Below are positions 1,040-46,519 of a stretch of DNA of 64,000 bases, piece by piece. The position numbers were made by a program, and so were the translations under genes. Position 1 is the first letter of the stretch. Each line of letters begins with the position of its first letter. The notes under the pieces were generated by a model. It was given only the letters and a program-made list of their open reading frames with translations, searched no databases and was not told the origin of the DNA. The DNA comes from Sphingobacterium lactis (GTDB taxonomy: Bacteria > Bacteroidota > Bacteroidia > Sphingobacteriales > Sphingobacteriaceae): positions 1,488,001 to 1,552,000 of the forward strand of contig NZ_CP049246.1 of the NCBI RefSeq assembly GCF_011046555.1. The letters run 5' to 3'.

Positions 1040-1684
1040 TTACCTCAGATCGACCAATTCAAATCCCGGATATTTTGTTTTCTGGAATTGGAAGGCAGCA
1101 TCTGCGATTGGGGAGTTTACATATAACCCGTTGATAGTATAGGTATATTTGGCTCCCGATTTATCAAATATTGTCACATCGTGGATGTGTTTGTTCTTGT
1201 TTATTCTCAGCTTGATCTTTGCATAGTTGCTCTTGGTATCCGCTGGAGACAGGTCGATAACCGTTAATTTACCGACTTTGCCTGCACTTTCATCGGTGCT
1301 GCTCACGTAGTTGTAGCCATCCCTATAGAATGTGAAGATATTGTTCGGTCCTATGGATTGACCGGAGTTATCCGCTTCAGATACCTGAACTTCTTTATCT
1401 TCCTTCAGTACAGACCAAACCGATTTCCCATCGGAAATCAATTCCTGCGTAGGCAGGTTGATCTTGTATTTGTTTGCACCCTTGTTCAGAAAGAGCTGGC
1501 CTTTGTCGTTATAACTTTCGCCATTCTTCTGAGTAGCTTTAAAGCTGAAATCCGACTGAATCGTGCTATAACCGTCATATTTACGGGATACTTCGTCCAA
1601 AAGTGCTTTTGCAGCCTTGTCCTGTGCAAAACCTGTGGTTGCTGCCAGGAAGGCGATACATACAAAAAGTAGTTTTTTCATCAT
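1040..1684 (-). CDS. lolA: Outer membrane lipoprotein carrier protein LolA
   Basis: A 214-residue periplasmic chaperone that takes lipoproteins released by LolCDE and carries them to the outer membrane. A signal peptide is seen (two Met, Lys-Lys, hydrophobic core, cleavage after FAQ near residue 20), followed by a LolA-like fold pattern with SDFSFKATQ, KGQLFLNK and a C-terminal GLYVNSPIADAAFQFQ. Its ATG shares one base with the ftsK stop, so the two are translationally coupled. The ftsK-lolA order is also known from other Gram-negatives. The second Met (1681) is an alternative start that changes little. Confidence 0.85.
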   Translation of the reverse strand: MMKKLLFVCIAFLAATTGFAQDKAAKALLDEVSRKYDGYSTIQSDFSFKATQKNGESYNDKGQLFLNKGANKYKINLPTQELISDGKSVWSVLKEDKEVQVSEADNSGQSIGPNNIFTFYRDGYNYVSSTDESAGKVGKLTVIDLSPADTKSNYAKIKLRINKNKHIHDVTIFDKSGAKYTYTINGLYVNSPIADAAFQFQKTKYPGFELVDLR

Positions 1685-4305
1685 TAATCTTTTCTTAACG
1701 TTTCCAAATACTGTTCCAATGAATACTCATCCGGGTAGAGGACCTCGCGGGCCTTGCTGCCTTCAAATGGACCTACAATACCTGCAGCTTCCAGTTGATC
1801 GATGATTCTTCCAGCGCGGTTATAACCTAATTTTAACTTGCGCTGAATTAATGATGTTGAGCCTTGCTGATGCATGACGATCAGGCGTGCTGCTTCTTCG
1901 AACAGTTGGTCGCGATCGTCCGGATCGAAGTCCGAAACGTCGGAGCCTCCATCTTCGCCCACATATTCCGGTAGGAGATGTGCTGACGGGTAACCGCGTT
2001 GGGATCCGATGAAATCGGAAACCTGGTCCACCTCCGGCGTATCGACAAAAGCACATTGGATACGGATCAGGTCACTTCCTGTCGCCAGGAGCATATCCCC
2101 GCGTCCGATCAGCTGATCGGCACCACCACTATCCAGGATAGTCCTGGAATCGACCTTGGACAATACCCTGAATGCTAAACGAGCCGGGAAGTTGGCCTTG
2201 ATCGTACCTGTGATGATATTCACGGATGGCCGTTGCGTGGCAATGACCAAGTGGATACCTACCGCACGTGCTAACTGCGCCAGACGAGCAATCGGTGTTT
2301 CCACCTCTTTACCTGCTGTCATCATCAAGTCGGCAAACTCATCAATAATAAGAACTATAAACGGTAAGAATCGGTGACCCTCCTCAGGGTTTAATCGCCG
2401 ATTGATAAATTTTACATTATATTCCTTTAAATTCCGGACCTGCGCGTTCTTCAACAGATCATAACGCTGGTCCATTTCGATACATAGGGAATTTAAGGTG
2501 TTGATTACCTTCTTCGTATCCGTGATAATCGCTTCATCCTCGTTTGGTAGTTTTGCTAAGAAATGGCGTTCGATCTTTTTGAACAGAGAAAGCTCCACTT
2601 TCTTCGGATCGACCAGAACGAACTTCAACTCCGCAGGATGTTTCTTGTACAGCAGCGACGTCAAGATCGCGTTGATACCAACGGATTTACCCTGACCCGT
2701 CGCACCCGCCACCAAAAGGTGAGGCATCTTCGCCAAATCGGCAATATACACCTCATTGGAAATCGTCTTTCCTAAAGCTATAGGCAGGTCCATGTCGGTT
2801 TTCTGGTATTTCTCCGTGGCCAAGATAGAGCGCATGGAAACCATCTCCGGTGACGAGTTGGGAACCTCGATACCGATGGTGCCCTTTCCAGGCATTGGCG
2901 CAATGATACGGATACCCAAGGCCGCTAAGCTTAGGGCAATATCATCCTCCAGGTTCTTGATCTTGGAAATACGAACCCCCGGTTTCGGGATAATCTCGTA
3001 AAGGGTTACCGTAGGACCAATAGTCGCCTTGATGTGTTCGATCTCAATGCTGTAGTTCCTTAAGGTTTCAACAATTTTATTTTTGTTCGCTTCAAGCTCT
3101 TGTTGGTTGATCGTGATCTTGCCAGTTCCGTAATCTTTCAAAAGATCAAGGGTAGGGTACTGGTATCCGGAGAGATCCAACTTAGGGTCATATTCGCCGA
3201 ATTTTTCCACAAGATCATTGGCCGTGATCGGTTTTTCCTCGATCACTTTCGCTACGGTAAGCGCGGGTTCAGCCACGACTTCTTTTTCCTGCGGCGCAGG
3301 TGGGTCGATGGTCAGCTCAATTTCCTGGTTATTTTGCCCGAAATTGGTATTGGGTTTTATCGTGTTCAACGGTAAAGAAACGGTGTTATCCTCCACAGGT
3401 TCCGTTTTTAATCCAATGTTGTCCACATCGCCCTCTTCCTCTTCTTCTATCACTTCCTCTTCAACGTGGTTGTACGTATGTGTGGCTACCTGAGCCGTAT
3501 TATCACGTACTTTATTGATGTGATTTTGGTGTGCCTGATTGGTGGTTGCAAGGTCTTCTTCCTCATCTTCCTCATCGTACTCCTCATCTCCATTGCTGTT
3601 GCGTAAGGACTGGAAGGAGAACTTCAGATCCAGGTTGTAGATCAGTACCAGAGCGGTCAGGATGATAAAGATCAAGAGCCCTGCAGTTCCGATGACGCCA
3701 ATCTGTGATTTCAAAATCTGATTCGTCCAGAATCCAAATTTACCTTCCAGGATATGGGGCGTATTGGAGATGAAATCCTGTGCGAAGCCCAAGGTCACGG
3801 AAAGAATGATGATGGATACTGCGGAATAGATGATCGTTTTCCATACTGGCAGGATCGAACGTTTATAGAGAAACTTATAGCCGATGACAAAGATCACCAA
3901 GATAAACAGGAAGGAGGCTATACCGAACCATTCATACATGAATTGGTTGGCCAACAGGGCCCCAAACTTTCCGAGTTTATTTTCTACGACTGGGGTCTCG
4001 ACCGCTTCATCGTTGATTTCCTCTGTAGTCTTCATTAAAGTGCTCCAGCCACCGTTACTCTGAGCGATGTAACTTTGGTCTGCCTGCCACGTAAAGAGGT
4101 AGGAGACAAATGCTACGGTAAATAGACCGGCAAGGATCAATAAGAATAAACCTAATATTTTAAGTGCCTTTTTCTGACCTTCCGAAAAATTGAATTGGTC
4201 AAAAGACTTTGTCCGACTGCGTTTTTGATAGGATAGCGTGGTATTCTTCGCCTTCTTAGTCCCAGTTGAACCACTGCTGTTTTTGAATGTGTTTAATTTT
4301 GCCAT
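1684..4305 (-). CDS. ftsK: DNA translocase FtsK
   Basis: An 873-residue septal DNA pump that clears and resolves chromosome dimers at division. Four membrane segments are seen near residues 47-70, 119-143, 155-178 and 203-223, then an acidic linker (about 235-295), the alpha/beta motor domain with Walker A GATGQGKS (534-541) and Walker B IIDEFADL, and a C-terminal winged-helix gamma domain (about 805-870, SLIQRKLKLGYNRAGRIID) that reads the polar KOPS-type sequences. A -7 element TAAGTTTG on the minus strand (4330-4337) predicts a leader of about 20 nt. It is followed directly by lolA, with one base shared. Confidence 0.97.
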   Translation of the reverse strand: MAKLNTFKNSSGSTGTKKAKNTTLSYQKRSRTKSFDQFNFSEGQKKALKILGLFLLILAGLFTVAFVSYLFTWQADQSYIAQSNGGWSTLMKTTEEINDEAVETPVVENKLGKFGALLANQFMYEWFGIASFLFILVIFVIGYKFLYKRSILPVWKTIIYSAVSIIILSVTLGFAQDFISNTPHILEGKFGFWTNQILKSQIGVIGTAGLLIFIILTALVLIYNLDLKFSFQSLRNSNGDEEYDEEDEEEDLATTNQAHQNHINKVRDNTAQVATHTYNHVEEEVIEEEEEGDVDNIGLKTEPVEDNTVSLPLNTIKPNTNFGQNNQEIELTIDPPAPQEKEVVAEPALTVAKVIEEKPITANDLVEKFGEYDPKLDLSGYQYPTLDLLKDYGTGKITINQQELEANKNKIVETLRNYSIEIEHIKATIGPTVTLYEIIPKPGVRISKIKNLEDDIALSLAALGIRIIAPMPGKGTIGIEVPNSSPEMVSMRSILATEKYQKTDMDLPIALGKTISNEVYIADLAKMPHLLVAGATGQGKSVGINAILTSLLYKKHPAELKFVLVDPKKVELSLFKKIERHFLAKLPNEDEAIITDTKKVINTLNSLCIEMDQRYDLLKNAQVRNLKEYNVKFINRRLNPEEGHRFLPFIVLIIDEFADLMMTAGKEVETPIARLAQLARAVGIHLVIATQRPSVNIITGTIKANFPARLAFRVLSKVDSRTILDSGGADQLIGRGDMLLATGSDLIRIQCAFVDTPEVDQVSDFIGSQRGYPSAHLLPEYVGEDGGSDVSDFDPDDRDQLFEEAARLIVMHQQGSTSLIQRKLKLGYNRAGRIIDQLEAAGIVGPFEGSKAREVLYPDEYSLEQYLETLRKD

Positions 4306-32054: not shown

Positions 32055-35000
32055 ATGAACTATAACAAAATCAATAATCTGTTGGGATGGGCGGTAGGAA
32101 TCATCGCTACCTTGACATACATATTGACACTAGAAAAGACAACGAGTTGGTGGGATACCGGTGAGTTTATTGCATCGGCGTATAAATTGCAGATCGTGCA
32201 TCAACCTGGAGCACCATTATTCTTGATGATCCAGAACCTGTTCTCGAATTTTGCGATGGGTGATAACACGCGGATTGCCTACTGGATGAACATCGGATCT
32301 GCAGTATGTAGTGGATTGACCATTACCTTCCTCTTCTGGACGATCACTGCTTTGGCGAGAAAAGCCTACCTGCACTTGAATAAAGAAGAAGTCCTCAACC
32401 AGGCCAACCTGATCAAGATCATGGGTGCTGGCGTTGTCGGAGCTTTAGCCTATACCTTTTCCGATACATTCTGGTTTTCAGCGGTGGAGTCCGAGGTATA
32501 TGCGATGTCTTCCCTGTGTACAGCAGTTGTATTCTGGGCCATCCTGAAATGGGAAGCACGTGCCGATGAGCCTGGTGCCGACCGTTGGTTATTATTGATT
32601 GCGTATGTGATGGGACTTTCCATTGGGGTTCACCTCTTGAACCTTTTGGTTATTCCGGCAATTGCCTTGGTGATCTACTTCCGCAAAGCGAAGCAGGTGA
32701 CCGGTATGGGGGTTGCCAAAGCCTTACTCTTGGGGGTTGTCGTCCTGGGTTTTGTGCTGTGGGGCGTTATCCAGTATGTTATTAAGTTTGCCGCATTCTC
32801 CGACCTGTTTTTCGTGAACAGCCTGGGTATGCCATTCGGATCCGGCGTGACTTTCTTTGCGCTGTTGTTGGTTGGTCTATTGGTATTCGGTCTGTGGTAT
32901 TCCCACAAGAACCTGAAATATATATTGAACATTTCCCTGTTAAGTTTGGTGTTGATCCTTTTCGGATACAGTTCATTTTCCATGATCCTGATCCGTGCAA
33001 AAGCAGATCCAACCTTGAATAACAGTGATCCTGACAATGCCTTTACGTTCTTGAGTTACCTGAACCGGGAGCAGTATGGTGATGAGCCGTTGATGAAAGG
33101 TCGTTATTTCGATGCGCAGCCAACGGAAATCTTCAACACGGGCAATGTGTACCGTAAGGACGGTAATAAATATGTCGTTGCCAAACAGAAATTCGATTAT
33201 AAATGGAGCCGGACAACCTTGTTTCCGCGTATCTATTCCGATAAACATTCCGGTTACTACCGTGATTTCTTGAACCTTGGACCAACGGAAGAACCTACCA
33301 TGGTGGATAACCTGAAGTTCTTCTTCGGTTATCAGATCGGGGAGATGTACAGCCGTTATTTCATGTGGAACTTTGTGGGTCGCCAGAACGATCATCAAGG
33401 GCCGGGATCCTTCTCCGAAGGAAACTGGATCTCCGGGATCAAACCTATCGACAACATTCGATTGGGCGGTCAATACGCCCTTCCGGAATCCGAGAAAAAC
33501 AATGCCGGTCGAAATACCTATTTCTTCCTGCCGCTGATCTTGGGGATCCTGGGTGCCATTTGGCACTTCAATAAGCAGCAAAGAGGAGCAGCCGTTGTTG
33601 CCCTATTGTTCTTCTTTACGGGATTGGCCATCGTGCTATACCTGAACCAAACACCAATGCAGCCACGTGAGCGTGATTATGCCTATGCAGGATCGTTCTA
33701 TGCATTCTGTATCTGGATCGGTTTCGGCGTGATTTGGCTTGCCGACCTGATCGGTAAAAAGGTGAATACCAAGAACGCTGCAATCGGCGCAACTGCCGTA
33801 GCGACCTTGGCCGGACCGGTATTAATGGCTAGCCAGAACTGGGATGACCACGACCGCTCGGAGAAATTCCTTGCCCGGGATATGGCAAAGAATTACCTAG
33901 AATCCTGTGCACCGAATGCAATCCTCTTCTCCTACGGAGATAATGATACCTACCCGCTATGGTATGTTCAGGAAGTCGAAGGCTTCCGTACGGACGTTCG
34001 CGTCGTCAACCTTAGTTTATTGAGCTCCGATTGGTACATGCGTCAGATGATGCAGAAAGTGAATGACGCTGATGCGTTGCCGATCAACATCGATCCGGAA
34101 AAAGTAAAGGATGGTGTCCGTGATGTCATCTATTACAACGATCTGAATATCCCGGGACACGTGGATGTGGAAGACCTATTGACGATCATGCTTTCCGATG
34201 ATCAGCAATATAAGGTGCAACTGCAGAGTGGCGACTGGGCCAATATCCTGCCGACCAAGAAAATGCAATATAAAGTGGACAAACAAGCTGTCCTAGCAAA
34301 TAATGTGGTACCTAAAGGATGGGAATCAACCATCGTCGATACCATGCAATGGACATTCCCGGGCGGTATCATCAGCCGTGCGGACCTTTCCATCATGGCG
34401 ATCTTGGCGAACAACAACTGGAAACGTCCGGTTTACTTCACGACGACCACACCTGAGGAAAACTTTATCGGCCTTGGAAAATACATGATCTCCGAAGGTT
34501 TTGCCATGCGCCTGATGCCGGTGGATACCGGTGCTGAAGGGGCAGATGGCAGCTTGGTGCTGGATGCCGAAGGTACCTATAACAACATCATCAATAAGTT
34601 CCAATGGGGTAATATCGCTCATGCGAAATACCTGGATCCGGATTCCTACCGCTACATCAGTATGTACGCAGGAACCATCTTCGGTGAGACCGCGCAGAAA
34701 CTGATCTTCCAAGGGAAACAGGATATGGCGAAGAAATTGGTGAACAATGCCTACGAAAACCTACCGAAGAAAGTGTACCTGATGTCTGAAGCATTTTCGT
34801 ATGCTTCCCTGATCGATGCCATGTATAAAGTAGGGGAAGTGCAGAAAGCCAACGAGATTGCAAAACGCAATTTGACGTTCATCCGTGAGAATATGGCCTA
34901 CTACATGAACATTGCCGAAACCAAGCCGAATTTGGAAACACGCAACATGCGCTTTGGTTTGGCAGCCATTCAGAATTACCAGCGTATCCTGGAGGCCGCA

Positions 35001-35078
35001 CAGCAGAAAGAGCTGTTGAATGAGGTCAACAAGATCTATGAGGTGTACAGACCATTGTACGAAGCCGCACAGAACTAA
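32055..35078 (+). CDS. GT117/DUF2723-family membrane glycosyltransferase-like protein
   Basis: A 1007-residue inner membrane protein. About a dozen membrane helices fill residues 1-590, and a soluble periplasmic C-terminal half follows. The opening motif TTSWWDTGEFIASAYKLQIVHQPGAPLF, with its acidic residues, is the hallmark of the DUF2723 (GT117) family, GT-C-type enzymes assumed to use polyprenyl-linked sugars; QPRERDYAYAGSF in the middle is also typical. The acceptor is not known. The gene is monocistronic, with a strong terminator at 35099-35157. Confidence 0.9.
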   Translation: MNYNKINNLLGWAVGIIATLTYILTLEKTTSWWDTGEFIASAYKLQIVHQPGAPLFLMIQNLFSNFAMGDNTRIAYWMNIGSAVCSGLTITFLFWTITALARKAYLHLNKEEVLNQANLIKIMGAGVVGALAYTFSDTFWFSAVESEVYAMSSLCTAVVFWAILKWEARADEPGADRWLLLIAYVMGLSIGVHLLNLLVIPAIALVIYFRKAKQVTGMGVAKALLLGVVVLGFVLWGVIQYVIKFAAFSDLFFVNSLGMPFGSGVTFFALLLVGLLVFGLWYSHKNLKYILNISLLSLVLILFGYSSFSMILIRAKADPTLNNSDPDNAFTFLSYLNREQYGDEPLMKGRYFDAQPTEIFNTGNVYRKDGNKYVVAKQKFDYKWSRTTLFPRIYSDKHSGYYRDFLNLGPTEEPTMVDNLKFFFGYQIGEMYSRYFMWNFVGRQNDHQGPGSFSEGNWISGIKPIDNIRLGGQYALPESEKNNAGRNTYFFLPLILGILGAIWHFNKQQRGAAVVALLFFFTGLAIVLYLNQTPMQPRERDYAYAGSFYAFCIWIGFGVIWLADLIGKKVNTKNAAIGATAVATLAGPVLMASQNWDDHDRSEKFLARDMAKNYLESCAPNAILFSYGDNDTYPLWYVQEVEGFRTDVRVVNLSLLSSDWYMRQMMQKVNDADALPINIDPEKVKDGVRDVIYYNDLNIPGHVDVEDLLTIMLSDDQQYKVQLQSGDWANILPTKKMQYKVDKQAVLANNVVPKGWESTIVDTMQWTFPGGIISRADLSIMAILANNNWKRPVYFTTTTPEENFIGLGKYMISEGFAMRLMPVDTGAEGADGSLVLDAEGTYNNIINKFQWGNIAHAKYLDPDSYRYISMYAGTIFGETAQKLIFQGKQDMAKKLVNNAYENLPKKVYLMSEAFSYASLIDAMYKVGEVQKANEIAKRNLTFIRENMAYYMNIAETKPNLETRNMRFGLAAIQNYQRILEAAQQKELLNEVNKIYEVYRPLYEAAQN

Positions 35079-36780: not shown

Positions 36781-36813
36781 AAAACAAAAGACCTTTTTAG
36801 TATATACGAAAGC

Positions 36814-36842
36814 CCTTCGGACCGAACCCGAAGGGTTTTTTG
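36814..36842 (+). terminator. Terminator of pyrB
   Basis: CCCTTCGG (36814-36821) pairs with CCGAAGGG (36829-36836), followed by six T. The spacer 36843-37201 that follows holds a GC-rich stretch (36990-37060) but no gene that can be supported. Confidence 0.88.
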
Positions 36843-37201: not shown

Positions 37202-37236
37202 TTTGAGGAAAACATACAACTTATACACTAATTTCG
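37202..37236 (+). promoter_or_regulatory. Candidate promoter of the envelope cluster
   Basis: TTTG (37202-37205), 23 bases, then TAATTTCG (37229-37236, one mismatch). The start near 37240 leaves a leader of about 80 nt to the chosen ATG at 37321. Confidence 0.5.
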
Positions 37237-37320
37237 TAGGTTGAAGGAATTGTATCATTTCGCCAGTGGAATGGTATGTTTTTAATAGAAAAGGATTCAT
37301 TTAAAGGAGTATTCAATCAT

Positions 37321-40300
37321 ATGTATAAAAAAATTTACCAGGCAGGAATAGCCTTAAGCTTGATGAGTACGCCCGTATTGGCACAGCACTCGGCATGGCA
37401 GGAGGTGAACAAGGCCTATAAGGACGGACTGGAGCTTTATGAGAGAGGGAAATTCAGTTCAGCGGCGAAGCAATTCGACAAGTTTGAGGAGATCCGTACG
37501 AAGTCGACGCTGCAGCTAGATGAGACTGAAGAGCTGTCGTTATTGAAAGAAAACGTTCGTTATTACCAAGCGGTGTGTGCCCTGGAATTGGGGGAGAGCG
37601 ATGCAGAAGGACGTTTCTTGAAATACCTCCGCGATTACCCGGCAAGCTCCAACTCCAAAGCGGCATATTTCCAAATCGGTAAATCATATTATGCGAAGAA
37701 AGATTATGCCAAGGCAATCGAGTGGTTCGAAAAAATCGATGGCAATAATCTAGCCGGAGCGGAAAACACAGAATACCGTTTTAAATTGGCCTATGCCAAA
37801 TTCATGACCGGCGATTATGAAGCCGCAAGACCGGTATTCAACGAGTTGAAAGATAAGGGCGGACAGTACCAAGAGGCTTCCATCTACTATTCAGCCTACC
37901 TGAGCTACCTAAATCAAGAATACAAAACAGCATTGAATGAGTTTGAGCGCCTAGAAGGGTCGAAAACTTATGAAAACAGCTACCCATACTACATCACGGC
38001 ACTATACTTCTTAGATAAGCGTTACGATGACGTATTGGCCTATGCACTGCCAAAATTGGAGTCCACCAAGCAGGAAAGTGAAACGGAAATGCTCCGCATT
38101 ATCGCTGCGACCTACTTTATCAAGGGTGACCTCGATAAATCCAAGGATTACTACGATAGATTCCAGGCACAGGACCAAGGGAAGACACAAAACAACCAGG
38201 ACAGCTACCAGATCGGTTATATCAACTACAAGCTGGGTAACTACGAAAAGGCGATTAGCGAATTGGAAAAATTGGAAGAACCGGATGCGTACTTCCAGAG
38301 TGCCATGATTACCTTGGGTGATGCCTTCCTGAAAACCGGAAATAAACAGAGCGCAAGAAATGCTTTCTTCCGTGCATCGAAATTGGATTTCGACCCACAA
38401 TTGAAGGAGGAAGGTTTATTCAACTATGCGAAGTTATCCTATGATCTGGAATTCCACCAGGTTGCATTGGATGCCATCAATGAATATATCGCAACCTACC
38501 CAAGAACCCGTCGTGCGGAAGAGGCAAAGACCTTATTGGCCGAGGTGTTGTTGAGCACGAAGAACTACCGCGCAGCGGTAGACGTGTTGGAAGATTTGCC
38601 AAACAGAGGTCGGGATGCGAATGCAGCCTACCAGAAAGTAACCTATTACCGTGGTTTGGAATATTACAACGAGCGTGCCTTTGAAAATGCAATCTCCATG
38701 TTCATGCGTTCCGAAGCGAACCGTTATGATGAGGAGATCTATGCGTTGGCAACGTATTGGAAGGCCGAAGCGATGTATGAGGTTCGGAAATACAAAGAGG
38801 CCGTAGCCGCCTTCAACAGATTCCTTTCCTTGCCGGCAGCGCGTAAGACAGATGTGTACAATTATGCCAATTATGCTTTGGCATACGCGGCATTCCGTGC
38901 GGATAACTACAGTACGGCGGCCAACTATTTCGAACGCTTCCTGGCTAGTGGTGGTAAGGATGGTATCGACTTGAATACGCGCAATGACGCTATGGCGCGC
39001 GCTGCGGATTCCTACTTGGCCATCAAAAATTACAGCAAAGCGGCCAACTATTACGATAGATTGATCGCATCAGGAGCACAGAGTCAGGATTACGCACTTT
39101 TCCAAAAGGGGATCCTATTGGGCTTACAGGGTGATAACAACGGTAAAATTTCCACACTGAACACCGTGATGTCGAAATATCCGAAATCAAACTATGCCGA
39201 TGATGTAGCCTTTGAAATCCCGTATACCTATTTCTTGATGGGGGATCACGACCGTGCCATCACCGGGCTGCAGAAAATGGTGGAACAATACCCGAGAAGT
39301 TCGTATGTGCCAAGAGCACTGACGACCATCGGTTTGGTACAGTACAACAAAGACGAAAATGATGCCGCTCTTGCGACCTTCCAACGTGTGGTAAACCAAT
39401 ATCCGACAACGGACGAGGCTAAGCAAGCGTTATCATCCATTGAAAATATTTATTTGGATCGTGGTGATGCATCGGGTTATATCCGTTATGCTACCGGAAC
39501 GAATATTGGTGATTTGAGCACGGCTGAGCAAGATGCCCGTACGTTCTCCATTGCCCGTACGTTATTCGACCGTGGAAACTGGCAGGCATCCGTGGAAGCC
39601 ATCAATGCCTATTTCGATAAATTCCCGAAACCGATCCAAGAGAAACATGCCCGTTTTATCCGTGCGGAAAGTAATGCGCAATTGGGTAAGGACAAGGAAG
39701 CCATGCATGATTTCAATATCATCATGAACGACTGGACCTCGGCGTATACCGAGCGTACCTTGATCTCCGTAGCGAAATTGCACCTGCGCAACAACGCCTA
39801 CAATGAAGCCGTACAGGTTCTGAAGAAACTGGAATTGACTTCCGAATACAAAGAGAACTACGGTTGGGCGGTGAACAATTTGTTGACCAGTTATTTCAAC
39901 ATGGGCGACTATGCAGAAACGCTGAACTATGCGAACATCATCAAGAAGTATGAGAAGTCATCGGAAGAGGATATCGCTAAGGCGCACCTGTATGCGGCGA
40001 AGGCTTACCTATCGACAAGTAAAGGTGGCGAAGGTATGAAAGAATTGAACCTTGCGGCATTGAAGTCCAAAACAGAAACCGGAGCGGAAGCCCGTTTCTT
40101 AGTGGCAGAACAACAATTGAAGAACAAGAATTACGATGGTGCTATCAAATCAGCATTTGATATTTCCGACTCCTTCTCTTCTTACGATTACTGGGTAGCA
40201 AAAGGCTTTATCATTATGGCCCAAGCGTACCAAGGTAAGGGCGATAACTTCCAGGCGAAATCAACGCTGGAGAGTGTGATCGACAATTACGAGAATAAGG

Positions 40301-40350
40301 ATGATGGAATCTTGGATGAGGCGACAAAACTATTGGAAAAAATTAAATAA
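37321..40350 (+). CDS. Exported tetratricopeptide repeat protein
   Basis: A 1009-residue protein with a signal peptide (MYKKIYQAGIALSLMSTPVLAQ, cleavage after LAQ); this ATG was preferred over an in-frame ATG at 37276 because it gives a proper signal. Nearly the whole mature chain is TPR-like helical hairpins, e.g. YYAKKDYAKAIEWFEKI, YKLGNYEKAISELEKLE and ALATFQRVVNQYP. Such solenoids act as periplasmic docking platforms. It is the first gene of the cluster, 11 bases before the barrel gene, and probably contacts the barrel or peptidoglycan-binding partner. Confidence 0.88.
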   Translation: MYKKIYQAGIALSLMSTPVLAQHSAWQEVNKAYKDGLELYERGKFSSAAKQFDKFEEIRTKSTLQLDETEELSLLKENVRYYQAVCALELGESDAEGRFLKYLRDYPASSNSKAAYFQIGKSYYAKKDYAKAIEWFEKIDGNNLAGAENTEYRFKLAYAKFMTGDYEAARPVFNELKDKGGQYQEASIYYSAYLSYLNQEYKTALNEFERLEGSKTYENSYPYYITALYFLDKRYDDVLAYALPKLESTKQESETEMLRIIAATYFIKGDLDKSKDYYDRFQAQDQGKTQNNQDSYQIGYINYKLGNYEKAISELEKLEEPDAYFQSAMITLGDAFLKTGNKQSARNAFFRASKLDFDPQLKEEGLFNYAKLSYDLEFHQVALDAINEYIATYPRTRRAEEAKTLLAEVLLSTKNYRAAVDVLEDLPNRGRDANAAYQKVTYYRGLEYYNERAFENAISMFMRSEANRYDEEIYALATYWKAEAMYEVRKYKEAVAAFNRFLSLPAARKTDVYNYANYALAYAAFRADNYSTAANYFERFLASGGKDGIDLNTRNDAMARAADSYLAIKNYSKAANYYDRLIASGAQSQDYALFQKGILLGLQGDNNGKISTLNTVMSKYPKSNYADDVAFEIPYTYFLMGDHDRAITGLQKMVEQYPRSSYVPRALTTIGLVQYNKDENDAALATFQRVVNQYPTTDEAKQALSSIENIYLDRGDASGYIRYATGTNIGDLSTAEQDARTFSIARTLFDRGNWQASVEAINAYFDKFPKPIQEKHARFIRAESNAQLGKDKEAMHDFNIIMNDWTSAYTERTLISVAKLHLRNNAYNEAVQVLKKLELTSEYKENYGWAVNNLLTSYFNMGDYAETLNYANIIKKYEKSSEEDIAKAHLYAAKAYLSTSKGGEGMKELNLAALKSKTETGAEARFLVAEQQLKNKNYDGAIKSAFDISDSFSSYDYWVAKGFIIMAQAYQGKGDNFQAKSTLESVIDNYENKDDGILDEATKLLEKIK

Positions 40351-40361
40351 GAATAGGACAG

Positions 40362-42077
40362 ATGAAGTTGAACAAAGTTTTTAAAAGATCAACCATATTA
40401 ACTTTATTATTAAGTGCTGGTTTCGGGGCCTATGCGCAGAAACGCGATACCGTAGACCGCCCAGTAACCTTAGACTCTTTTGATATCGTACGTGATTACA
40501 GACCTATTCTTGCTGATGCGGTAAAAATCCGCCGTAGCCCTGATATGGCCAACAAGCGTGAGTACATGCCTAAACTTAACTATGGAAATGTACAGGATAA
40601 GAAATTGGATATCAATACGGGATTGAGCGCCCTCCAGGTGATGGAGACGCCATTCTCGAAGATTGCCGATTACAAGAGCAATTACATCAAATTTGGTGCG
40701 GGTAACTTCAATACTATTCTAGGTGAAGCGTACTTTGCCGTAGAGGATTATGAGGATATCCGTTTCGGTGGTTTTGCGAAGCACCTGAGCCAGAAGGGTA
40801 GCCTGGAGGATCAAAAGTTCTCCAAACAGGAAGTGGGTATCTTCGGACGCCGTATTTTCCCTATGTTTACCGTAGATGGCGTGATCGGCTACAATGGTTT
40901 CGGAACCCGTTTTTATGGAATTCCAACCACTGTTGACAATATTTCATTGAACCCATCGCGTGAGGCGCAACGTTTCAATGATATCTACTTTACAGGTGAA
41001 TTGACCAGCAATTTCGACCCAGAGAACGAAGATGCATTAAGTTATTCCGTAAAGGCAGATGCCTATACGTATAACGATAAGTACGAGGCAAGGGAAAGTT
41101 CCATTGCGCTATCGGGATACCTGAACAAACGCTACAGAGCATTCAATGCCGGAGCGAATCTATCCTTGGATTACAATACCATTAAAGGTGTGAACACACC
41201 AGACGCGAAGTTGAATAACTCCGTGGCGAACATCAATCCATACATCCGTTTCAAAGGGGAGAACTACAACATTACCTTGGGCGCGAACATTGTTTCTGAA
41301 TTTGGCGACAGCTCCCGTTTCAATGTGTTCCCAGAAGCAGAGATTGACTTCGCTTTGGCACCGGGTTACTTCTACATCTTTGGTGGGGTTACTGGCGGTG
41401 TGGAAAAAGGATCTTTCCGCGACTTCACGCGTTTGAATCCATATTTAGGTTCCAATTTCAATATCCAGAATACCATCGAGCGGATGAATATCTATGGGGG
41501 TATCAAAGGGAATGCAGGAGCAACCTTTGGCTATAAGGTAAAAGGTTTCTACCGGAAGGTAGAGGGCTTGGCCATGTTCGTGAACAATGCCACGACGCCA
41601 TTCAATTTTGACCTGGTCTATGACGGAAACGGCGATGACGCGGTGAAACATGTCGGTATCGAAGGGGAGATCAATGTACGCCTATCGGCCCTAGTGAACT
41701 TAGGTGGTCGCTTGAACATTGACCAATACACCATGGTCAATCAGGAGGAAGCTTGGCACATGCCAAAGATGAGATTGGCAGCAAATGCGCGATTCAATAT
41801 TTCAGAGAAATTATTTATCGATGCTGAGGCCCTATTCCATGGGAATTCCTACGCGAAGGAATACACCTATTTGGATGCAACCACAGTACCTACGGATTAT
41901 AAGAAAGCGACAGTTGCGTCGTTCTTTGATTTGAGTGCTGGTGCAGAATACAAGGCCACCAAGCAATTAGGGATCTTTGTGAAAGCGAACAACATGTTAA
42001 ATACGGAATATTCTCGCTACCTGTATTATCCGAAACTAGGATTTAATATTTTAGGTGGTGTAAATTTTTCTTTTTAA
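40362..42077 (+). CDS. Outer membrane beta-barrel protein, plug-less TonB-receptor-like
   Basis: A 571-residue protein with a signal peptide (cleavage after AYAQ near residue 25), an N-terminal periplasmic stretch including DSFDIVRDYRPILADAVKIRRSP, and a barrel of amphipathic strands ending in GGVNFSF with terminal Phe, as outer membrane proteins do. No plug domain is seen. Neighbours (TPR protein before; HU-SPOR, ExbB, ExbD, TonB after) suggest it is the outer membrane anchor of a TonB-powered trans-envelope assembly, not a nutrient receptor. Confidence 0.82.
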   Translation: MKLNKVFKRSTILTLLLSAGFGAYAQKRDTVDRPVTLDSFDIVRDYRPILADAVKIRRSPDMANKREYMPKLNYGNVQDKKLDINTGLSALQVMETPFSKIADYKSNYIKFGAGNFNTILGEAYFAVEDYEDIRFGGFAKHLSQKGSLEDQKFSKQEVGIFGRRIFPMFTVDGVIGYNGFGTRFYGIPTTVDNISLNPSREAQRFNDIYFTGELTSNFDPENEDALSYSVKADAYTYNDKYEARESSIALSGYLNKRYRAFNAGANLSLDYNTIKGVNTPDAKLNNSVANINPYIRFKGENYNITLGANIVSEFGDSSRFNVFPEAEIDFALAPGYFYIFGGVTGGVEKGSFRDFTRLNPYLGSNFNIQNTIERMNIYGGIKGNAGATFGYKVKGFYRKVEGLAMFVNNATTPFNFDLVYDGNGDDAVKHVGIEGEINVRLSALVNLGGRLNIDQYTMVNQEEAWHMPKMRLAANARFNISEKLFIDAEALFHGNSYAKEYTYLDATTVPTDYKKATVASFFDLSAGAEYKATKQLGIFVKANNMLNTEYSRYLYYPKLGFNILGGVNFSF

Positions 42078-42114
42078 TCGAACAAACTATAACTTTGCAG
42101 CAGGAACAGGATAA

Positions 42115-43149
42115 ATGGATTTAGGTAGATATATTCATCAGTTATTAAAGCGCCGTAACGAGGTTTATGTGAAGGGTTTGGGGGTATTCAAGCGCATTCA
42201 TACACCTTCAGTTTACGATGAGAAACGGGCTGTATATCTGCCACCGGTCACTTACCTGGAGTTTGATGCGAAATCCACCTCAGGTGTAGATTTCGTGGAC
42301 TATCTGCAGCAGGCCAAGCAGCTTTCCAAGCAGGCCGCTGAAGCCGAAGTGGAAGAGGCTGTTGTCACTTTGTTGGCGAACATCCGGGACAATGGTCAGG
42401 TGCAGCTGAATCATGTCGGACAACTGATCAAGCACGGGTCATCCTTGGTTTTCAAAGCCGAAGACCTGAGTGGATTTCAATTGCAACCCATCGAACGGAC
42501 AATTGCTGAGCGGGAGGAAGAGACCCCTGTGGTCGAAGAAACCGTAGAACCGGTTCCAGCTCCAGCACCAGAAGTGGAAGAGGTCGTAGAAACGCCGATT
42601 GCCGAGGAAGTGGTGGAAGCTCCCGTTAATGAACCGGTATATGAAGAAGAATACAGTAGACCTGCGGGTAAATCTTCCTGGTACATATGGGTCGGTCTGC
42701 TGGCCCTCTTGATCATTGGGGCATTGGTTTACTTCAATTGGTCTTCATCCGCGGCACCGGAGGCAACAACGGCCGCTGGATCGGATTCAACTTCAGGAAC
42801 TACCGATAGCATCGCTCAGGCATCCACTTTGGATAGCAGTAAAGCGGTTCTGGCAGATTCCCTGGCGGCAGACACAACGGGTAAGAAAGTGTACAATCCA
42901 CTTATTCCGGCAAATCACACCTATCAGATTGTTATCGGTACGCACAGTACCCTGGCTCAGGCGTACGAACAAGCCGAATCTTTTAACAAGGCAGGCGTTG
43001 AATCCGTACGGGTGATTCCGAGCAATCTGGCGCATAACAAGAAAAAAGTAATCTGGGATTCCTACGAAACAAAATTACAGGCAGATTCTGCATTAAAATA
43101 TGTGCGCAAGCACTATGTATCCGATGCTTGGCATCAAAAAATTAAATAG
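42115..43149 (+). CDS. HU-CCDC81-like and SPOR domain transmembrane protein
   Basis: A 344-residue inner membrane protein. Residues 1-125 form the bacterial HU-CCDC81 pattern (DLGRYIHQLLKRRNEVYVKGLGVF), a relative of DNA-binding HU that is cytoplasmic here. A Pro/Glu/Val-rich linker (about 130-185) leads to one membrane helix (about 188-208), a Ser/Thr/Asp-rich periplasmic linker, and a C-terminal SPOR domain (about 268-340, TYQIVIGTHSTLAQAYEQAESF) that binds denuded septal peptidoglycan in known cases. It could therefore tie nucleoid to cell wall. Confidence 0.85.
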   Translation: MDLGRYIHQLLKRRNEVYVKGLGVFKRIHTPSVYDEKRAVYLPPVTYLEFDAKSTSGVDFVDYLQQAKQLSKQAAEAEVEEAVVTLLANIRDNGQVQLNHVGQLIKHGSSLVFKAEDLSGFQLQPIERTIAEREEETPVVEETVEPVPAPAPEVEEVVETPIAEEVVEAPVNEPVYEEEYSRPAGKSSWYIWVGLLALLIIGALVYFNWSSSAAPEATTAAGSDSTSGTTDSIAQASTLDSSKAVLADSLAADTTGKKVYNPLIPANHTYQIVIGTHSTLAQAYEQAESFNKAGVESVRVIPSNLAHNKKKVIWDSYETKLQADSALKYVRKHYVSDAWHQKIK

Positions 43150-43184
43150 TAATCAATCAAAACAGTAAAATATTCTTTTAAACT

Positions 43185-43886
43185 ATGTCATTAGTACAAA
43201 ACCCAGCGATCGTTGACACATTGAACCAAATGCAACAACAGCAACCGGTAGCTTTAGCTACAACGGATGATCTTAATCTTTTAGAGTTATTAATGAAGGG
43301 TGGATGGATTATGATTCCAATCCTCTTGTTATTCTTCTTGGGATTGGTTATATTCTTTGAACGTTACATCACGATCCGTAAGGCAAGCCGTTCCGAAGGT
43401 GGATTACTGGCACAGGTAAAGAGCAATGTATTATCGGGTAAGATCGATGCAGCGATGGCCGCTTGTCGTTCCAATAACTCAGCACTTTCCAGAATGTTGC
43501 AAAAAGGATTGACACGCGTTGGTCGTCCGATCAAAGATATCGAAGGTGCGATCGAGAACCAAGGTAAGTTGGAAGTTTCCCGCTTGGAGAAAAACATCAA
43601 TATCTTGGGTATCATTGCCGGTATCGCGCCGATGCTTGGTTTCGTAGGTACGATTTTCGGGGTTATCCAGATCTTCCGTGATGTGGAGATGGCCGGTGGT
43701 ATCGATATCGGTTCGGTATCCGGAGGTCTTTACGTGAAGATGATCGCTTCGGCATCGGGTCTGACCATTGGTATCTTAGCCTACATCGGTTATCATATCC
43801 TGAACATGATGGTTGAGCGCTTGATCTTGCGCATCGAAACGGATGCTATTGAATTTATTGATTTATTGGATGAACCAAGCATGTAA
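43185..43886 (+). CDS. ExbB/TolQ/MotA-family proton channel protein
   Basis: A 233-residue inner membrane protein with three membrane segments (about 42-62, 133-155 and 175-198). LGIIAGIAPMLGFVGTIFGVIQIF and GLYVKMIASASGLTIGILAYIGYH are the conserved pore helices of ExbB/TolQ. With the next gene (ExbD/TolR) it forms the proton-driven motor that energises TonB or Tol proteins. The gap to the HU-SPOR gene is 35 bases, to exbD 32 bases. Confidence 0.93.
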   Translation: MSLVQNPAIVDTLNQMQQQQPVALATTDDLNLLELLMKGGWIMIPILLLFFLGLVIFFERYITIRKASRSEGGLLAQVKSNVLSGKIDAAMAACRSNNSALSRMLQKGLTRVGRPIKDIEGAIENQGKLEVSRLEKNINILGIIAGIAPMLGFVGTIFGVIQIFRDVEMAGGIDIGSVSGGLYVKMIASASGLTIGILAYIGYHILNMMVERLILRIETDAIEFIDLLDEPSM

Positions 43887-43918
43887 TCCGGGTAACCGAT
43901 TACAGTAAACGAGCTAAA

Positions 43919-44326
43919 ATGAATTTACGAAATAGAAGAAATAAACCTGCTGCAGAAGTGCACACCGCGGCGCTGAACGATATCATGTTCTTCTTGATGT
44001 TGTTCTTCCTATTGGCTTCCGCAGTCTCCAACCCTCAGGTGGTGAAATTGCTGTTGCCTAAGTCCAGCGCTGGGGAGCAATCGGTAGCGAAAAAAACCAT
44101 GACCATTTCCATAACCAGTGATCTGGTCTACCATGTGGATAAGCAACCTGTCCCTTTGGAGCAATTGGAATCTTATATCCAATCCAACCAGGCAACAGGT
44201 GAGGAGCTGACCATTATGTTGTACGCGGATAGCACCGTGCCGATCCAGAACGTGATTTCGGTCATGGATGTTGCGAACAGGTTGAAGGTTAAATTGGTAT
44301 TGGCTACCGAACCCAAGAAAGATTAA
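43919..44326 (+). CDS. ExbD/TolR-family biopolymer transport protein
   Basis: A 135-residue protein with one membrane helix (about 19-40) bearing the essential proton-carrying Asp21 in LNDIMFFLMLFF, and a periplasmic TolR-like domain (about 60-135, TISITSDLVYHVDKQPVPLEQLESYI, VMDVANRLKVKLVLAT). It partners with the ExbB upstream. Confidence 0.93.
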   Translation: MNLRNRRNKPAAEVHTAALNDIMFFLMLFFLLASAVSNPQVVKLLLPKSSAGEQSVAKKTMTISITSDLVYHVDKQPVPLEQLESYIQSNQATGEELTIMLYADSTVPIQNVISVMDVANRLKVKLVLATEPKKD

Positions 44327-44385
44327 TGGCACTGCCATTAAACGTTTTGGGATTTGAATGGTCGTAACAAAGAAGAGATAAGGAC

Positions 44386-45207
44386 ATGTATTACAATCAA
44401 TATCGCGAAGAAAATAACCTGCCGAAGGCATTTGGGATATCCTCATTGGTGATGGCTGCCTTGGCAGCTATCGGATTCTTCATTGTCTTTGGTCAAGACA
44501 TTCCAGAATACGGTATGGGTGGTATCATCGTGAACTATGGTACATCCCCAGAAGGTATGGGTGATGACTATATGAGCGTGGATGAACCTTCCATGGATGA
44601 GAATGCGAATAATGTACGGCCCGATAAGATCGATCCGAATTCAACACCGATCCCTACACCATCCCAGCAGGTAGCCGATAAGGCTGTCGCCACGCAGGAT
44701 GTGGAAGAGGCACCCGTTGTTGCCAAAGCGGAGAAACCTGTAAAGGCGGTCGCTGAACAGACCACAGCGGAGAAAAAGAACGCTACACCGGCAGTAAATC
44801 CAAATGCCCTGTACAAAGGGAAAAAGAACAATGCACAGGGAACAGGTGATGGTACAGGGTCCACAGCCGGAAACCAAGGCTCCAAACTGGGTGACCCATT
44901 GGCCAGCAACTATGGTGAAGGTGGTTCCGGATTCGGAAATGCCATGCTTTCCCTGGAGAATAGACGCTTTACCGTCCCACCAAAGATTGATGATAACGGC
45001 CAACAGACCGGAATTGTCAAGATTGAATTTACCGTGGACAAAAGTGGTAAAATCGTCCGTGCAAGACAGGCCAAAGGAACCACGATCGCGGATTACCGTT
45101 TGATCGAGAAATGTATCCGTGCGGTGGAAAATGCACGCCTGAACGAGCTCCCTAATGCTCCACAGACCCAAACCGGTCTGATTACTTTCAGATTTAGAGT
45201 ACGATAA
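44386..45207 (+). CDS. TonB-family energy transducer
   Basis: A 273-residue protein anchored by one helix (about 16-35), with a long Pro/Ala/Lys/Gly-rich periplasmic linker (about 60-190) and a C-terminal TonB/TolA-like domain (about 195-273, IVKIEFTVDKSGKIVRARQAKG, RAVENARLNELP). The linker could span the periplasm. The fixed place behind a plug-less barrel suggests service to that complex, though it may also energise receptors such as those at 28941 and 57589. It is 10 bases before folC. Confidence 0.85.
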   Translation: MYYNQYREENNLPKAFGISSLVMAALAAIGFFIVFGQDIPEYGMGGIIVNYGTSPEGMGDDYMSVDEPSMDENANNVRPDKIDPNSTPIPTPSQQVADKAVATQDVEEAPVVAKAEKPVKAVAEQTTAEKKNATPAVNPNALYKGKKNNAQGTGDGTGSTAGNQGSKLGDPLASNYGEGGSGFGNAMLSLENRRFTVPPKIDDNGQQTGIVKIEFTVDKSGKIVRARQAKGTTIADYRLIEKCIRAVENARLNELPNAPQTQTGLITFRFRVR

Positions 45208-45217
45208 TACTGCATAT

Positions 45218-46519
45218 ATGAAAACATTTACAGAGGTAATCGAGTATCTTTTTGCTCGATTACCTATGTTTACACGTGATGGTGCCTCAGCCATCAACCC
45301 CGACGTCGATAAGACCCTATTGTTTTGCCAGCACTTCGGCAACCCCCAGCACAAATTCAAATCCATACATATCGCCGGTACCAACGGCAAGGGATCATCC
45401 TCACACATGACCGCCTCCATTTTGGCAGCAGCAGGCCTGAAGACAGGATTATATACCTCGCCTCATTTGGTGGACTTCAGAGAGCGCATCCGCATCGATG
45501 GGCAGATGATTCCCCAGCAATGGGTAGTGGATTTCGTCAATGCCAACCGGGAATTCATCGAGGACATCAAACCTTCGTTTTTTGAAGTCACCGTTGCGAT
45601 GGCATTTGCTTTCTTTGCAGAAGAGCAGGTGGACATCGCTGTGATCGAGGTCGGTTTGGGTGGAAGGCTCGATAGCACAAACATCATCCTACCGGAATTA
45701 TGCCTCATCACCAATATCGGCATGGACCATATGAATATCCTTGGTGATACCATTCAGGAGATCGCTGGGGAAAAGGCCGGCATTATCAAGCCTGGCGTTC
45801 CGGTAATTGTGTCGGAGAAACAGGAAGAGATCGTCTCTGTTTTTGTGGACAAAGCGGCAGCAGGTGATAGTCCGCTAACTTTTGCGGAGGATGTATATAC
45901 CGTTCGTCAATCCGAAAGGAAACTGACGGGGATGGATGTCGCGGTTGAGGATGTCAAGACTAAGGAATGCCATGTATGGCACCTGGACCTGGCCGGATCT
46001 TACCAACGGAAAAATATTATTGGGGTGCTCTGCGTAGTGGATAGCCTTCGTGAAATGGGGTATACCCTGACGGAAGAACAGGTACGCTATGGTCTGTCCC
46101 ATGTGCAACAGGCAACCGGTTTGCGTGGGCGTTGGGAAACCCTGAGCACCGATCCTTGGGTGATCTGTGATACCGGACATAATGAGGACGGCATTAAAGC
46201 CGTGGTACGAAACCTGACCACCCTTAATTTTCATCACTTGCACATCGTCATGGGCGCAATGAAGGATAAAGACCTGGCACATATCCTTCCACAACTGCCT
46301 AAGCATGCGCATTATTACTTTGGAGCACCTGACATGCCAAGAGCGATGAGTGCCGCGGAACTAACCGAGCAGGCAGCATCCTTCGATTTGCAGGGCAATC
46401 CATACCCTAGCGTGGAAGATGCTTACCAAGAGGCATTAAAAGCGTATAAGGAAGGTGATTTGATCTTTATCGGTGGAAGTACCTTTGTTGTCGCTGAGGT
46501 CTTGACTAATCATTCTTAG
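45218..46519 (+). CDS. folC: Bifunctional folylpolyglutamate/dihydrofolate synthase
   Basis: A 433-residue Mur-ligase-like enzyme that makes dihydrofolate and adds glutamates to folate. The ATP loop is IAGTNGKGSSSHMTAS, then GLYTSPHLVDFRERIRIDG, EVGLGGRLDSTNI, LITNIGMDHMNILGDTIQEIAGEKAGIIK and DTGHNEDGI. It follows tonB by 10 bases and is probably cotranscribed, without an evident functional link. It overlaps the convergent ansA by 14 bases, with no terminator between. Confidence 0.95.
   Translation: MKTFTEVIEYLFARLPMFTRDGASAINPDVDKTLLFCQHFGNPQHKFKSIHIAGTNGKGSSSHMTASILAAAGLKTGLYTSPHLVDFRERIRIDGQMIPQQWVVDFVNANREFIEDIKPSFFEVTVAMAFAFFAEEQVDIAVIEVGLGGRLDSTNIILPELCLITNIGMDHMNILGDTIQEIAGEKAGIIKPGVPVIVSEKQEEIVSVFVDKAAAGDSPLTFAEDVYTVRQSERKLTGMDVAVEDVKTKECHVWHLDLAGSYQRKNIIGVLCVVDSLREMGYTLTEEQVRYGLSHVQQATGLRGRWETLSTDPWVICDTGHNEDGIKAVVRNLTTLNFHHLHIVMGAMKDKDLAHILPQLPKHAHYYFGAPDMPRAMSAAELTEQAASFDLQGNPYPSVEDAYQEALKAYKEGDLIFIGGSTFVVAEVLTNHS

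Follow-up and report, generated by a model that had tools for sequence, protein, structure and literature searches.

Within the window, that is the whole 64,000-nucleotide stretch of Sphingobacterium lactis DNA that was analysed, the list of open reading frames holds six ORFs that all lie on the + strand and together span 37276-45207. They are separated by gaps of 11, 37, 35, 32 and 59 bases, so that the six co-directional genes with short gaps described in the first-pass annotation are present, on the + strand throughout. The position it took as the start, 37202, falls in the upstream region instead of at the start of a gene, and whilst all six members of the proposed set are there, a seventh co-directional gene, folC, accompanies them. 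The features of the region are as follows.

36806..36841, no strand assigned: terminator-like hairpin at the boundary between pyrB and the operon (scan, 10-pair stem)
37202..37236, + strand: possible Bacteroidota-type promoter, TTTG, about 23 bases, then TAATTTCG (from reading of the sequence)
37276..40350, + strand: TPR scaffold protein, periplasmic (ORF; Pfam TPR; NCBIfam; profile A9)
40362..42077, + strand: predicted plug-less 22-strand outer-membrane barrel (AlphaFold, Foldseek, profile A7)
40470..40547, + strand: the barrel's conserved periplasmic tail, residues 37-62 (family conservation; graft on a TPR paralogue)
42115..43149, + strand: bitopic HU-SPOR protein with two HU-CCDC81 domains, a membrane helix (about 189-210) and SPOR (Pfam, model, profiles)
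43185..43886, + strand: ExbB/TolQ-type motor protein (Pfam MotA_ExbB, NCBIfam)
43919..44326, + strand: ExbD/TolR-type motor protein with an invariant membrane Asp, D21 (Pfam ExbD)
44386..45207, + strand: TonB-type force transducer with a conserved juxtamembrane linker (Pfam, NCBIfam)
45218..46519, + strand: folC, a passenger with exbB-exbD-tonB (10-base gap after the TonB gene; co-directional)

The hairpin, whose position is also given as 36813-36835, was called on the - strand, is nearly symmetric and has a run of T at its end on the + strand. Further away, 5' of pyrR-pyrB, lies a gene of the TMEM260-like protein O-mannosyltransferase family (window 32055-35078, + strand; PF11028, 4.1e-73).

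The protein encoded by the second gene has 571 residues and belongs to no Pfam family. In its AlphaFold model (43 orthologues; mean pLDDT 80.1) the strands run from residue 108 to 570, 22 of them by our own count, with short turns and longer loops in alternation; residues 33-105 have no confident structure and only the signal helix precedes the strands. No plug domain was found by Pfam search or in the model, and the 107 residues before the first strand, which include the signal peptide, leave about 80 disordered residues after it, in keeping with the earlier description of the barrel as plug-less. The best solved matches to the model in Foldseek are BtuB and FpvA. With 22 strands, these two matches and nothing confident before residue 108, the modelled protein appears to be a barrel of the TonB-dependent-receptor fold from which the plug is missing. 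Transporters such as BtuB and FpvA share the 22-strand fold and the periplasmic N terminus, yet they have a plug, whereas the window barrel has in its place a conserved disordered tail and is encoded beside TPR and SPOR proteins. Lacking a plug, the barrel does not count as a normal TonB-dependent transporter.

The disordered tail holds the best conserved part of the protein: among Sphingobacteriaceae orthologues the most conserved 22-residue stretch falls in residues 37-62, where mean column identity is 81% versus 65% in the barrel. A conserved DYRP is present in the tail. In some distant lineages the same position reads ETVTVTK or PEFIVTG, which resemble TonB boxes. When scored with a matrix derived from the TonB boxes of E. 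coli, the tail of the window barrel reached p of about 0.5 against shuffled tails, and the score was individually significant in 4 of 43 barrel tails. Since the score of the window protein is not significant, the segment is named here a conserved tail and not a proven TonB box, and is treated as a conserved, putative docking segment.

The product of the first gene is a protein of about 1000 residues with a signal peptide, the position of which makes the Met at 37321 a likelier start than 37276. It passes the cut-off of the NCBIfam family tol_pal_ybgF (TIGR02795, CpoB/YbgF; 154.7 bits against 90.1, in 8 stretches) as well as that of the BamD/YfiO family (107.4 bits against 81.4); CpoB is a component of Tol-Pal, although the window protein is several times longer. 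Stop codons that are read through within some matches to the TPR profile are suspected to fall at the ends of genes.

A link between tail and TPR protein is suggested by a second gene of the same genome (G000:C1:3070116-3072656, equivalent to L204:8117-10672, - strand), in which a signal peptide and the barrel tail are fused to a truncated TPR protein. The tail matches at 65.9 bits (8e-15), and the TPR part corresponds to everything from about residue 244 onwards, with 55% identity. Ahead of this hybrid gene lie a GT20/S6PP gene of the trehalose-synthesis type and the gene of an MscS-type channel. By our count of full-length matches it lies outside the operon in 48 of 61 Sphingobacterium genomes, the tail being intact in all 12 of the Sphingobacterium hybrids inspected; in three Parapedobacter genomes it is found within the operon, in the order TPR-hybrid-barrel (L099:2519-5068, L101:2587-5085, L103:2560-5109). 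As a soluble TPR protein has thus retained the tail, the latter appears to be a portable module that is functionally tied to the TPR protein.

The third gene encodes a protein of 344 residues in which two HU-CCDC81 domains are followed by a single membrane helix and, at the C terminus, a SPOR fold. Pfam calls HU-CCDC81_bac_1/2 in the window protein and gave no call for SPOR in it, which it does call in orthologues (best 2.5e-17). The profile of the family matches the solved SPOR domains of CwlC (2.9e-9), DedD (9.2e-6) and FtsN (3e-5), and the modelled region has the beta-alpha-beta-beta-alpha-beta order, so that the SPOR domain read earlier from the sequence is well founded. A Foldseek search with the whole model gave no match below 0.001, which is expected as two small domains sit on linkers, and no relatives were found among viral contigs. 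FtsN, DedD and DamX, like the HU-CCDC81/SPOR proteins of Bacteroidota, also combine a cytoplasmic domain, one membrane helix, a linker and SPOR; the window protein differs from FtsN, DedD, DamX and their kind in having two cytoplasmic HU-like domains, which are gone in some lineages.

The published prediction for HU-CCDC81 proteins is reportedly that they tether the chromosome to the envelope. The HU part of the window family nevertheless looks like an accessory, given that it is missing in several lineages and that the match to solved HU/IHF proteins ends at about residue 55, short of the DNA-binding arm. The model has a hairpin in the first HU domain and no arm in the second, whose match to HU reaches to about residue 55. 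As many as 37 of 74 downstream SPOR proteins match solely past the HU part of the profile, a figure that sets a ceiling, since HU matches that are divergent or listed separately could go unnoticed, and Pfam found no HU match in three SPOR proteins inspected directly (L151, L155 and L179). HU as an essential link to the nucleoid is not supported, with HU lost in lineages that keep the other parts, and the nucleoid link is the weakest element of the first reading.

The three remaining genes of the six encode a motor. Pfam identifies MotA_ExbB (2.2e-22) and ExbD (2.5e-24), and TonB_C weakly (0.0035, below its curated cut-off). The nearest named relatives of the ExbB, from S. cellulitidis and S. 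mizutaii, are 97% identical to it. A TolQR name was considered and is not claimed, since the TolQ, ExbB, ExbD and TolR equivalogs of NCBIfam were matched only below their cut-offs: ExbB matches TolQ at 1.2e-16 and ExbB2 at 5.6e-10, both far below, and a TolQ/TolR-type identity holds at superfamily level only. The same three families, encoded together here, make up the Ton motor ExbB-ExbD-TonB, from which the window motor differs in its dedicated neighbours and in its TonB protein: the SHLS/His motif known from TonB/TolA is missing from its membrane helix (gene part 44386-44580, + strand), and within the family the juxtamembrane segment GGIIVNYGT..GMGDD hardly varies. Just two motors of the ExbB family are encoded in the genome. 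The second, a standard ExbB-ExbD-ExbD-TonB set near 942 kb, appears to serve general uptake, which would leave the window motor free for a dedicated task.

It is apparent from comparison across the phylum that the set is not a local assemblage. In Sphingobacteriaceae the order TPR, barrel, HU-SPOR, ExbB, ExbD, TonB, folC is found in essentially every locus inspected, some of which end at contig edges. In a sample of 148 genomes of the Bacteroidota phylum, searched with TPR profile A9 and barrel profile A7, a full-length TPR protein was found in 108 and the barrel in 107; both occur together in 107, a single genome (G048) has the TPR protein without the barrel and none has the barrel without the TPR protein. 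Matches to the C terminus of the barrel only, in other classes, were ambiguous at first and were settled by a profile rebuilt from syntenic members. The TPR gene lies directly 5' of the barrel gene in 84 genomes from 27 families, and at least 74 genomes have a match to the SPOR protein at most 3.5 kb 3' of the barrel. ExbB and ExbD adjoin the set in several families of the class to which Sphingobacterium belongs, as they do in other classes. In genomes of families f4 and f2 the motor block and the TPR-barrel-SPOR block are separate, with the f4 motor mostly in the order ExbB-ExbD-TonB-folC and the HU-SPOR gene elsewhere in the genome; the f22 loci inspected have the SPOR gene followed by TonB with no ExbBD, and in two loci (L179, L198) TonB adjoins TPR-barrel-SPOR although ExbBD is not there. 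The gene order, whole or in blocks, is thus kept far outside close relatives, and the conservation argues that the set is a real and ancient unit.

The distribution of this unit does not overlap with that of Tol-Pal. Pal over its curated cut-off together with a full-length TolB is found in exactly 30 of the 148 genomes, all from one family (f15), and TolB is over its cut-off in 28 of these with the other two just below. None of the 30 has the TPR or the barrel protein, so the overlap is zero, although as f15 is one clade this exclusion amounts to a single replacement and should not be counted 30 times. The family is presumably Chlorobiaceae, since FMO, a protein of green sulfur bacteria, is present in all four members tested. 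One of its loci has the order tolQ-tolR-tolA-tolB-pal-cpoB, and its CpoB is the protein that the TPR profile matches weakly. No TolB over the cut-off was found in the TPR-barrel genomes (best in the S. lactis genome 1.9e-20), nor any Pal over the cut-off outside f15 (best in the S. lactis genome 1.2e-22, below the cut-off). By these profiles ten genomes, from f10, f13, f26 and one of f17, have neither system (G041, G044, G045, G050, G053, G117, G124, G160, G168 and G172); among three of them tested for FMO those of f13 and f26 (G044 and G117) were positive and that of f10 was negative.

The window set has much in common with Tol-Pal (TolQRAB-Pal-CpoB): a proton motor of the TolQ/TolR/ExbB/ExbD families, a transducer of the TonB/TolA type, a CpoB-like TPR protein, a link to peptidoglycan and a single operon. 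It differs in that an integral barrel and a SPOR protein stand in place of TolB and Pal, neither of which is found over curated cut-offs, and in its TPR protein of about 1000 residues. As TolB and Pal were tested for and are absent, the set is not a member of Tol-Pal, but it may plausibly serve as a substitute. The dedicated Tol-Pal-like motor with a plug-less barrel and TPR protein that had been suggested thus gains from the wide conservation of order and the mutual exclusion with Tol-Pal in the sample. Our preferred reading, held tentatively and at a little under even confidence, is that the six proteins make up a single dedicated machine that exerts force across the envelope, much as Tol-Pal does.

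In such a machine the SPOR protein would collect the complex where denuded glycan is exposed, that is at the division site, and the ExbB-ExbD motor would drive TonB, which could then tug the disordered tail of the barrel, either directly or by way of the TPR scaffold. Since the barrel would have neither a plug to be displaced nor, in consequence, a gate for a substrate, the force would be borne by the barrel itself and by the surrounding outer membrane, which would be drawn inward and held to the wall. Inward pull and wall attachment are the job of TolQRA-TolB-Pal in other bacteria. On its cytoplasmic face the machine would have the HU part as an accessory adaptor, which some lineages have lost. 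As the core set of TPR protein, barrel and SPOR protein is found in nearly every lineage of the phylum save the one with Tol-Pal, it may hold and divide the outer membrane. The broader proposal, that most Bacteroidota divide and stabilise their outer membrane by a proton-driven machine with outer-membrane parts unrelated to those of Tol-Pal, in which a TonB-type rod pulls a plug-less 22-strand barrel by its tail with the help of a large TPR scaffold and SPOR targeting, is possible but rather doubtful.

The main rival to the force-machine reading is energised export or assembly at the outer membrane. Surface lipoproteins, LPS or some other component of the envelope would then be translocated through the plug-less barrel as a pore, with the TPR protein taking the part of periplasmic adaptor that BamD plays for BamA and with force supplied by ExbBD-TonB. 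A barrel modelled as empty with 22 strands would suit this, as does the passing of the BamD/YfiO cut-off by the TPR protein, and in another class of the phylum (e.g. L184, L187, L188) a LolA-like/FtsK pair adjoins the genes for barrel-HU-SPOR-ExbB-ExbD-TonB. In the window, however, the LolA-like and FtsK-like pair lies away from the operon (1043-4305, - strand), Pfam gave no call for the LolA-like gene, the label being our own, and export leaves both the SPOR protein and the mutual exclusion with Tol-Pal unexplained; we regard it as unlikely. It could also be that the operon merely houses separate machines, the motor serving general TonB uptake and TPR-barrel-SPOR being a neighbouring envelope complex. 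The split blocks of f4 and f2 genomes are what this would predict, but the blocks stand together in several families and other classes and f22 retains TonB alone beside TPR-barrel-SPOR, so that separate machines seem improbable.

A tether between chromosome and envelope, in which the HU domains would bind DNA and couple segregation with constriction, draws on the cytoplasmic N-terminal position of the HU-CCDC81 domains and on the FtsK gene that adjoins the locus in another class. Against this are the loss of the HU part in lineages with the other parts kept, the HU/IHF match that stops before the DNA-binding arm and the fact that HU-SPOR is the fastest-evolving protein of the set, which together make a tether distinctly improbable. 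Least probable of all, and very improbable, is that the barrel is a nutrient receptor of the ordinary TonB-dependent kind, equipped with a motor of its own: it shares its fold with BtuB and siderophore receptors, but it has no plug in the model, the association with TPR and SPOR is conserved across a phylum of very different diets and a second, normal Ton motor is present in the genome.

Another candidate for the role proposed here has been published and has also to be weighed. Tol-Pal is needed for constriction of the outer membrane in many diderms. A 2025 survey of force transducers (PMC12204202) states that Bacteroidetes are without identifiable tol-pal loci, and proposes PorE as their tether from outer membrane to wall and their substitute for Tol-Pal. 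PorE is a single lipoprotein, a fusion of CpoB-TolB-carboxypeptidase-like-Pal parts with no motor described in its locus. PorE and the window set are both proposed as the substitute yet involve different genes, and PorE counts against the force-machine reading. No description of the window gene set was found in the accessible text of the survey, nor in a search of literature that takes in few subscription journals, for which absence counts for little.

A conserved, motor-driven set that none of the Tol-Pal-bearing genomes contains is a concrete candidate for the missing Bacteroidota system. The phylum is dominant in the communities of the gut and of the environment. If the force-machine reading is true, a barrel of the TonB-dependent type would serve these bacteria as a mechanical handle instead of a gate.
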